A stretch of 38,619 nucleotides of DNA from Singulisphaera sp. GP187. Its GTDB lineage: Bacteria; Planctomycetota; Phycisphaerae; Phycisphaerales; SM1A02. Location: positions 1 through 38,619 of the forward strand of contig CAMDAQ010000011.1 in assembly GCA_945888705.1 (NCBI GenBank), given 5' to 3'. Position 1 is the first letter of the stretch. Each line of letters begins with the position of its first letter. The notes below the pieces were generated by a model. That model was not told the DNA's origin. It was given only the letters and a program-made list of their open reading frames with translations, and ran no database searches. The position numbers and the translations under genes were made by a program. Of the stretch, positions 2,445 to 36,314 are shown in pieces.

Positions 2445-4396
<1,952 letters not shown>

Positions 4397-4402
4397 CGGG
4401 CC

Positions 4403-4408
4403 ATGCTA
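4403..4408 (-). promoter_or_regulatory. Predicted -10 box, leaderless start of the ABC exporter
   Basis: TAGCAT on the minus strand, 6 bases before the ATG at 4396. There is no room for a Shine-Dalgarno on such a transcript. It fits the spacing seen at many other starts in this window. Confidence 0.5.
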
Positions 4409-4417
4409 GGGCCGCGC

Positions 4418-4423
4418 TACAGT
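4418..4423 (+). promoter_or_regulatory. Predicted -10 box, leaderless start of the EEP lipoprotein
   Basis: TACAGT, 7 bases before ATG 4431. An in-frame GTG at 4422 lies inside this hexamer, which argues for ATG 4431 as the true start. It is 9 bases from the divergent -10 of the ABC exporter. Confidence 0.5.
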
Positions 4424-4430
4424 GCACCGC

Positions 4431-5690
4431 ATGAGCCTCCCACTGGTCCTCGTTCTCTCAGGCTGCACGCTCGCGGCTTCACTCCTTGGCCTGACCCAGT
4501 CCGCCACCGACACCGAGCGCAGCTCGAAGTCATCGGCCGTCACGCAGCAGGGTTCGAGCGGCCCGCGTCGCGGCGCTGATGCGCAGGATGCGCAGCAGGG
4601 CGGTGAGCAGAAGCCCAAGGCCAAGCGGCCGCCCGGCGTCTACTACGGCTTCAAGGAGGCGCCTGCCAAGCAGAAGGGTGCGGTTCGCCTGGCGGCCTAC
4701 AACGTCGAGAACCTCTTCGACGGCGAGGATGATCCGAAGCTCAGCGGCGAGGTCGACGACCTGAAGGAACGCACGAGCGAGGACAGGCTGCAGGCGCTCG
4801 CCAAGGCGATCAAGGCCCTCGATGCCGACATCCTGGCGCTCGAGGAAGTCGAGAGCGAGGAGTGCCTGCGCTGGTTCCGGGATACCTACCTGAAGGACCT
4901 GGGCTACGAGCACCTGGCGAGCAAGGAGGTGGGCTACTCGCGAGGCATCGAGCAGTCGATCCTGAGCCGCTTCCCCATCGAGTCGGTCGAGGTGCGCCCG
5001 GACGAGGATCTTTCCGACGTGAAGCGTGACGGCAAGGGCTTCGCCGAGAAGCCCACCAAGCCAGGTGCGGAACAGGGGCAGCGCTTCCAGCGCAGTCCGC
5101 TGATGGCCGACGTGCGCGTGACGCCCGACTACCTGCTTCGCGTGATCGTGGTGCACCACAAGGCAGGCGGGCTGGAGTTCGCCTACCAGCGCGAGGCCGA
5201 GGCGCTGCAGGTCATGGAGTGGGTGAAGGATGCCCAGGCGAAGGATGAGCACATCAACCTCGTCGTGCTGGGCGACTTCAACGCGCAGCCGAGCCACAAG
5301 ACCGCCAAGGTCTATTCCGAGGGCGGGCTCGTCGGCGCGTACGACTTCCGCGACCGCTCGCGCAAGGACATGAAGGATGCGTACACCACGCACGCCTCGG
5401 GTCGCCCGATCGACTACATCATGGCGTCGCCCGGCCTGAGCGAGGACTTCGTGAACAGTTCGTTCTTCGTGCTCGGCACCATGCACGCGGGCGATGACTA
5501 CGACTGGCGCAAGGGCGAGGAGCCCCCGAAGGGCTACGCCAGCGACCACTACCCGATCGCGATCGACTTCACGCCCGATGATTCGGAACTCGCCGATGGT
5601 GGCAAAGCCAAGCCAGCCCCCAAGGGCGCTTCGACATCGTCAGCGACGTCAGCGTCCAAGCCCGCATCGAAGCCCGACGCTGACGACTGA
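4431..5690 (+). CDS. Secreted endonuclease/exonuclease/phosphatase-fold lipoprotein
   Basis: 419 residues. A short hydrophobic start ends in L-S-G-C, a lipobox that would anchor the mature protein by Cys 12. A Ser/Gln/Lys-rich linker follows, then an EEP (DNase I-like) domain from about residue 85. Active-site landmarks are A-Y-N-V-E-N-L-F-D, A-L-E-E-V-E-S (metal Glu), L-G-D-F-N-A-Q-P-S (Asp/Asn pair) and the closing S-D-H-Y-P-I (Asp-His). The domain looks catalytically complete. Members cleave phosphodiesters in nucleic acids, sphingolipids or phosphoinositides. A surface lipoprotein of this kind could scavenge phosphate from external DNA or act on lipids, but the substrate is not visible. 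The C-terminus is a Ser/Ala/Lys-rich low-complexity tail. Confidence 0.87.
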   Translation: MSLPLVLVLSGCTLAASLLGLTQSATDTERSSKSSAVTQQGSSGPRRGADAQDAQQGGEQKPKAKRPPGVYYGFKEAPAKQKGAVRLAAYNVENLFDGEDDPKLSGEVDDLKERTSEDRLQALAKAIKALDADILALEEVESEECLRWFRDTYLKDLGYEHLASKEVGYSRGIEQSILSRFPIESVEVRPDEDLSDVKRDGKGFAEKPTKPGAEQGQRFQRSPLMADVRVTPDYLLRVIVVHHKAGGLEFAYQREAEALQVMEWVKDAQAKDEHINLVVLGDFNAQPSHKTAKVYSEGGLVGAYDFRDRSRKDMKDAYTTHASGRPIDYIMASPGLSEDFVNSSFFVLGTMHAGDDYDWRKGEEPPKGYASDHYPIAIDFTPDDSELADGGKAKPAPKGASTSSATSASKPASKPDADD

Positions 5691-35312: not shown

Positions 35313-35513
35313 TCATCCTCCACCGACCAGCGTGACCACCTCGACCCGGTCGTCATGCTTCAGGGGCGTCTCGCCGTGCAGCCGCTTGGGCACCAGCGCG
35401 CGGTTCACTTCGACGGCGCAGATCGAACGCTCGAGGCCGAGGCGGCCGAGCAGGTCGGTGACGCGCTCGCCATCGGGGAGTTCCATCGATTGTCCGTTCA
35501 CGGTCACGAGCAT
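35313..35513 (-). CDS. thiS: Sulfur carrier protein ThiS
   Basis: 66 residues, ubiquitin-like fold size. M-L-V-T-V-N-G-Q, the [12 protein letters not shown] strand and the end [10 protein letters not shown] are typical; the C-terminal glycines are adenylated and thiocarboxylated by ThiF. The tail is Gly-Gly-Gly rather than the usual Gly-Gly. Its codons GGT GGA GGA TGA contain the Shine-Dalgarno for thiG. TAGGAT 7 bases before the ATG predicts a leaderless message. thiF and thiC are not in the window. Confidence 0.93.
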
Positions 35514-35519
35514 CGCTCC

Positions 35520-35526
35520 TATCCTA
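35520..35526. promoter_or_regulatory. Shared bidirectional -10 box of thiS and the divergent lipoprotein
   Basis: TATCCTA reads TATCCT on plus, 6 bases before GTG 35532, and TAGGAT on minus, 7 bases before the thiS ATG at 35513. One 7-base element thus fits the leaderless spacing in both directions. Only 18 bases separate the two start codons. Confidence 0.5.
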
Positions 35527-35531
35527 GTGCC

Positions 35532-36314
35532 GTGCGTCATGCCGTCATCATGCTCTTCTCGTGTGCAGCGCTTGTCGCGTGCAGCAAGCCGGCCATCGAC
35601 ACCAGTACCCCCGAGGCCTTGCTCGAGGCGGTCCGGGTCGCAGTCGAGGATGGCCGCCCCGAGATCCTGCCTGACCTGATCGATGTCCCCGTGCGCGAGG
35701 TCGAATTCGCCGACGGCGTGACCGAGGCGAGTGCCGTCGAGGACGTGCGGGGCAAGCTGAAGGACATGCTGGCCCAGCTCTGGCGCGTGACGGTCAAGCT
35801 CCGCGAGCGCTTCCCCGGGCAGGTCACCAAGGAACTTGCGGCGGCGCAGTCCGACCTGGTGCCCAAGGACTTTCGCGAGGGCTTCGCGCGGTTCTTCTCG
35901 GATCCCTTCGGTGAAGTCCAGCGGGAGCGGGTGAACCTGAAGGCCGAGGATCTCGGCGACGGCACCGCGGCGCTGCTCTGGAAGGATGAGCCGCTCTGGG
36001 GCGGGGCGATCGCGATCGAGGAGCGCTCGGGTGGCTGGCGGTTCGTGGTGCCTGTGGACCTTCTGCGATCGAACGAGTACTTCCCCGACACGCGCGAGGA
36101 GTGGGCGATCCTGGCGAGCATGATGCTGGGCATCGAGAATTCGCTCTCGGACTTCGAGCGCGAACTCGACGAGGGGAAGTTCCGCGACCTCAAGGCCGCG
36201 AGCACGCGGGTCGGCCGCCTCGTCGGCGAGAGCGTGGTCGTGCAGAGCGTGATCTACGCGATGATGAAGCGCGAGGATCAGGGTGACGCGACGAAGAGCC
36301 GCGACACCAGGTAG
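35532..36314 (+). CDS. Hypothetical lipoprotein
   Basis: 260 residues from GTG 35532, giving M-R-H-A-V-I-M-L-F-S-C-A-A-L-V-A-C with a lipobox Cys at residue 17; an ATG six codons later is an alternative but lacks the basic start and the promoter spacing. The mature part is mostly helical and charged, with a central domain (D-L-G-D-G-T-A-A-L-L-W-K-D-E-P-L-W-G-G, then G-W-R-F-V-V-P-V-D) resembling small NTF2- or DUF4878-like folds. This is a loose impression, not a recognised match. Its last 37 bases overlap the end of the antiporter gene on the other strand. Confidence 0.78.
   Translation: MRHAVIMLFSCAALVACSKPAIDTSTPEALLEAVRVAVEDGRPEILPDLIDVPVREVEFADGVTEASAVEDVRGKLKDMLAQLWRVTVKLRERFPGQVTKELAAAQSDLVPKDFREGFARFFSDPFGEVQRERVNLKAEDLGDGTAALLWKDEPLWGGAIAIEERSGGWRFVVPVDLLRSNEYFPDTREEWAILASMMLGIENSLSDFERELDEGKFRDLKAASTRVGRLVGESVVVQSVIYAMMKREDQGDATKSRDTR

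Follow-up and report, generated by a model that had tools for sequence, protein, structure and literature searches.

A candidate bidirectional promoter with one -10 box between the leaderless-type starts of thiS and a lipoprotein-like gene in a Phycisphaerales genome

Anatomy of the thiS/lipoprotein gap

The window, the whole 38,619-nucleotide stretch of DNA that was analysed, lies on contig C11 of genome G000 (2.36 Mb, ~68% G+C in the sampled part). The named relatives of G000 are Planctomycetota/Phycisphaerales genomes, many of them from lakes. A lipoprotein-like gene and thiS diverge from a short intergenic gap (Table 1). The first-pass annotation had pointed to a near-palindrome in this gap, TATCCTA, that offers a -10 hexamer to each gene, and the positions, both spacings and the 18-bp gap are exact in the sequence. 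The two hexamers have reciprocal A/T bases in common at 35521 and 35525. The candidate promoter and both translation starts occupy 24 bp in total, in agreement with the earlier estimate of under 25 bases.

The GTG start of the lipoprotein gene is backed by a signal peptide/lipobox (VRHAVIMLFSCAALVAC) and is kept as GTG-CGN in all congeners. Another GTG, at 35527, was rejected as the start as it is out of frame. A search for a Pfam family gave no match for this protein. No Shine-Dalgarno sequence precedes the gene; thiS has AGGA/AGGAG overlapping or adjoining the -10 box.

Several features of the gap were counted against a bidirectional promoter, among them the AGGA/AGGAG before thiS, a possible Shine-Dalgarno sequence. 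TATCCT and TAGGAT each match TATAAT at 4/6 positions, and the -35 candidates sought 16-18 bp upstream, TTCACG and ATGACG (4/6 each), are as frequent as at background. T at -18 is absent for starts at 35532 and 35514, C being found on both strands instead. A consensus scan called no promoter at the gap, and Rfam gave no match at the locus, such as a TPP riboswitch.

Table 1. Features of the thiS/lipoprotein gap in the window and other candidate shared -10 boxes in G000.
Feature	Position	Strand	Remarks
Candidate shared symmetric -10 element TATCCTA (TANNNTA, 18-bp mode)	35520..35526	both	from sequence, conservation and enrichment over decoys
Candidate -10 hexamer TATCCT, lipoprotein gene	35520..35525	+	6 nt to GTG
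Candidate -10 hexamer TAGGAT, thiSG	35521..35526 (read 35526-35521)	-	7 nt to ATG
Intergenic gap CGCTCCTATCCTAGTGCC between both start codons	35514..35531		18 bp; equal length in 7/7 congeneric genomes
Lipoprotein-like gene, 260 aa	35532..36314	+	GTG at 35532; predicted +1 at or adjoining 35532
thiS, 66 aa, PF02597 (E 3e-14)	35313..35513	-	ATG at 35513; predicted +1 = 35514 (1-nt leader) or 35513 (leaderless)
thiG, PF05690	34457..35308	-	downstream of thiS; presumed common transcript
AGGAG, Shine-Dalgarno-like	35516..35520	-	2 nt before thiS ATG, badly spaced; congeners have AGGTG, AGGAA
xseA/recG box TATGGTA	G000 C8:29325		18-bp gap
Alcohol dehydrogenase (adh)/DUF1573 box TACACTA	G000 C33:1356
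Box TACAGTA, unnamed pair			one protein scanned, without a Pfam match
Box ATCGTAGGAT, kynU-like pair
The TACAGTA and ATCGTAGGAT boxes together, putatively shared between divergent genes	G000 C16:28741 and C35:about 1866		genus-conserved

Leaderless-type starts and conservation of the box

To place the two spacings in a genomic context, the region upstream of 549 first-in-unit genes, found with a simple gene caller blind to upstream sequence, was scanned for TANNNT. The motif peaks at spacers of 6, 7 and 9 nt (36, 31 and 22 genes vs ~2). Genome-wide statistics rest on 2.0 of the 2.36 Mb, in which coding-like starts with TANNNT number 207, 123 and 90 at the same spacers vs ~10-30 elsewhere. A Shine-Dalgarno class is also present; only 10/142 leaderless-type starts have a Shine-Dalgarno core. 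No -35 signal was found upstream of leaderless-type genes, TTGACA being matched at ≥4/6 positions in 5-7%, no higher than in controls. By these statistics leaderless-type promoters are routine in this genome, because TANNNT peaks so sharply before starts without a -35 signal. C at -1 was considered as an initiator signature, as it occurs at 80% of leaderless-type starts, but was dropped as evidence because Shine-Dalgarno starts have it almost as often (72%).

Both spacers of the locus sit on genome peaks, the lipoprotein gene at 6 (207 vs ~20) and thiS at 7 (123 vs ~20). The earlier claim of leaderless spacing on both sides therefore stands as far as the spacers go; strict leaderlessness is less certain for thiS, since with a spacing of 7 the canonical start falls on the base just before the ATG, and thiS may have a 1-nt leader. 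Spacer 8 is a dip and spacer 9 a second peak (207, 123, 39 and 90 at 6, 7, 8 and 9; 2.0 Mb). The genome encodes sigma-70 family factors, including an RpoD-sized one of 611 codons.

TANNNT occurs 0.46 times per strand-kb. TATCCT is the sole + strand TANNNT between about 35000 and 35560, and TAGGAT the sole - strand TANNNT between about 35500 and 36100. The dinucleotide TA is ~4x rarer than expected from base composition (8345 observed vs 30809 in 1.17 Mb of G000). Such scarcity would limit spurious -10 boxes where a lone TANNNT seems to start transcription.

The core of the gap, CCTATCCTAGT, was compared among seven congeneric genomes. All 11/11 core bases are invariant in 7/7 genomes; at fourfold-degenerate sites of the flanking genes, the same seven agree in only 27% of cases. 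The naive probability of this result is about 6e-7, a guide and not an exact value because sites were treated as independent. The expectation of the first-pass annotation that the gap be conserved as TANNNTA thus held within the genus. Both start codons are conserved jointly with the outer bases of the box. TCC in the middle of the box is likewise invariant within the genus; a pure TANNNTA model does not call for this, and it was counted against the model. The sequence TATCCTAG is also found in sister genomes L080 and L108, where the best-fitting start codons are ~21 bp apart.

We also considered whether the conserved TAGGATAGG is the Shine-Dalgarno sequence of thiS, with AGGA 8 nt from the ATG, on a leadered mRNA that begins further upstream inside the lipoprotein gene. 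A distance of 8 nt is close to optimal for a Shine-Dalgarno sequence in this genome. This explanation is very unlikely: no TANNNT lies upstream for >500 bp, the AGGAG adjoining the ATG is unconserved (AGGTG, AGGAA), the invariant outer T and A of the box would be superfluous, and in most relatives a clear -10 box precedes thiS at spacer 6-8.

The divergence of the lipoprotein gene from thiSG is kept across the family. In most relatives, members of the lipoprotein-like family (35532-36314) stay near thiSG in divergent orientation; the gene is possibly linked to thiamine, or merely a frozen neighbour. Each gene has a separate TANNNT at 38/73 loci (one call, L093, is doubtful). A neighbouring clade of 12 genomes has a different shared element, TAAGATTA, and L073 alone has ATCCTACGAT, two hexamers with the central TA in common. 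The remaining loci of the 73 have a box for one gene only. The spacer distribution has its maximum at 6-8 nt for both genes: at spacers 6/7/8 the 73 relatives have TANNNT 14/30/11 times before thiS and 34/16/9 times before the lipoprotein gene. 'Shared(4)' calls at thiS for L054 and L058 were set aside as probably spurious.

In a tree of ThiG+lipoprotein, one supported clade of 31 rows holds the TATCCTA group, the TAAGATTA group and a 10-row group with separate boxes. L073 lies outside this clade on a long branch. This placement implies that the shared state had at least two origins, or one origin followed by loss.

These comparisons bear on a one-way promoter, in which the element drives only one gene, the other starts elsewhere, and its match is a by-product of -10 near-symmetry. 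A -10 box is near-symmetric by nature, and the divergent RNA that such a box produces is often a non-coding antisense transcript. Nevertheless this alternative is unlikely. The next upstream TANNNT is absent for about 400-570 bp on each strand, both spacings are at the genome-wide leaderless peak, and the outer box bases are conserved jointly with both start codons. Furthermore, where relatives lack a shared box, thiS and the lipoprotein gene usually each have a leaderless-type -10 of their own.

Recurrence at other divergent pairs

The arrangement start codon, TANNNTA, start codon, with 4-8 nt on both sides, is found at only 4 places in the first 1.17 Mb, all between divergent genes: the thiS/lipoprotein gap and the xseA/recG, adh/DUF1573 and TACAGTA pairs. 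The raw count is weak alone, as a Markov model expects 1.9; the recurrence signal comes from the fact that both flanks are real genes and from conservation. The xseA/recG box is conserved in all seven congeneric genomes with a readable gap, the adh/DUF1573 box in six congeners (two more are not alignable there), and the TACAGTA box in all readable congener copies. Among genera the middle bases of the xseA/recG box vary (TATGGTA, TAAGATA, TAATGTA) and TA...TA is constant, as a -10 box predicts; the recG spacing is less certain there. The TACACTA and TACAGTA boxes have spacer 9 on both sides.

Start codons lie 5-9 nt away on both sides at 7/49 (14%) TANNNTA sites vs 2-4% (1-2 sites) at decoy distances (2.0 Mb). 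When coding-like frames were required on both sides, 3/49 TANNNTA sites remained vs 4/1724 for ATNNNAT and 12/3822 for GTNNNAC. This filter is strict, as the adh/DUF1573 pair fails it despite support from homology. A second form, ANNNTANNNT, occurs at the right spacing at 5/102 sites, with 0-1 at decoys. One second-form site, GATCGTAGGATC, is invariant in 9/9 congeners; it lies beside a kynureninase-like gene. Overlapping boxes are almost confined to two offsets, a preference that is partly explained by geometry because those two need the fewest fixed bases. TANNNTA is infrequent, with 25 in 1.17 Mb, yet no less frequent than other out-of-phase TA pairs, so that specific avoidance of it is not claimed.

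Elsewhere in the window, at 4394-4433, a divergent pair 34 bp apart has two separate leaderless-type boxes, TAGCAT with a spacer of 6 nt to the left ATG and TACAGT with one of 7 nt to the right ATG. This pair appears to be the unmerged state of the same design.

Recurrence also bears on whether the conserved core is not a promoter element and instead an operator bound by a regulator, such as one of thiamine genes. Such a site would account for the full invariance of the core within the genus, middle bases included, and for the presence of TATCCTAG in two sister genomes. However, unrelated gene pairs have the same geometry with other middle bases, there is no Rfam match such as a TPP riboswitch, and with transcription starting at the ATG there would be no space for a leader. 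An operator is thus extremely unlikely.

Taken together, it is probable that merged leaderless promoters recur at divergent pairs in this Phycisphaerales lineage, mainly with 18- and 23-bp start spacing, that promoter and both starts fit in ~24-30 bp, and that strong selection holds the merged state in place as a compact unit of coupled expression.

Proposed mechanism and comparison with known systems

TATCCTA is very probably a bidirectional promoter that feeds two leaderless or near-leaderless mRNAs. The proposal of the first-pass annotation that one symmetric -10 box is used both ways gains support from the spacing statistics, the conservation, the recurrence and the published 18-bp geometry (PMC10268837). 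Anatomy, conservation, leaderless spacing and recurrence come from the sequence and its statistics; the start sites, the sigma factor, the use of both directions in one cell population and the translation of leaderless mRNA are what we infer.

The element would be a sigma-70-type promoter cut down to one common -10 box, which the housekeeping (RpoD) RNA polymerase would bind in either orientation. The -11A and -7T of one strand would pair with the -7T and -11A of the other. RNA would start ~7 nt beyond the box on each side. The rightward start would be at the GTG (35532), so that the lipoprotein mRNA would be leaderless; the leftward start would be at 35514 or 35513, and the leader of the thiSG mRNA would measure 1 or 0 nt. 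The predicted start separation is 18 (35514/35532) or 19. The promoter would work without a -35 box, like those of leaderless genes in this genome in general.

Concurrent binding of polymerase in both orientations is sterically excluded. The earlier prediction that the two genes would compete does not follow from this, as the basal activity of the five E. coli bidirectional promoters tested was too low for measurable competition, which appeared only once one direction was strongly activated (PMC12825309). Basal activity is likely to be weak here as well, because there is no -35 and the boxes match at 4/6; therefore competition should not be assumed.

Bidirectional promoters, with start sites on opposite strands 7-25 bp apart, were described by Warman, Grainger and co-workers (PMC10268837, PMC12825309). 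Like the element described here, they have one -10 box read on both strands with reciprocal -11A/-7T, and the predicted 18-bp separation is the same. Among them 18 bp is the commonest separation, since it brings -11A and -7T into reciprocal pairing; separations of 10 and 23 bp are also common (PMC10268837, PMC12825309). The ANNNTANNNT form fits their 23-bp spacing, as derived from hexamer positions. Published bidirectional promoters also often drive two mRNAs. The present element differs in that the coding regions begin at or adjoining the starts predicted from sequence, in its lack of a -35 and of T at -18, and in its 24-bp unit. T at -18 is frequent in E. coli bidirectional promoters and does not define them (PMC10268837).

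The leaderless genes of Deinococcus-Thermus (PMC12340547) and M. tuberculosis (PMC3898074), and those of a survey (PMC3160421), are similar in having a -10 box just upstream of ATG/GTG, generally without Shine-Dalgarno. PMC12340547 makes no mention of divergent or bidirectional arrangements, and the abstracts of PMC3898074 and PMC3160421 do not describe one box serving two leaderless genes. Planctomycetes are low in Shine-Dalgarno genes, with an upstream bias that fits leaderless mRNA and/or S1 binding (PMC5397173); that work differs in that it covers one planctomycete genome at the level of composition, with no promoter assignment. Among titles and abstracts, with incomplete literature coverage, no account was found of two leaderless genes fed by a single -10 box.

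Bidirectional promoters and leaderless genes are each known, and their combination here seems to be new. The candidate promoter, both predicted start sites and both start codons fit in 24 bp without a -35, so that nearly any base change would touch transcription or translation on both sides. The locus thus offers a minimal natural setting in which to ask whether selection favours -10 symmetry or only tolerates it. Within the family, the relatives with a separate box for each gene and the neighbouring clade whose shared box is different serve as a built-in comparison.
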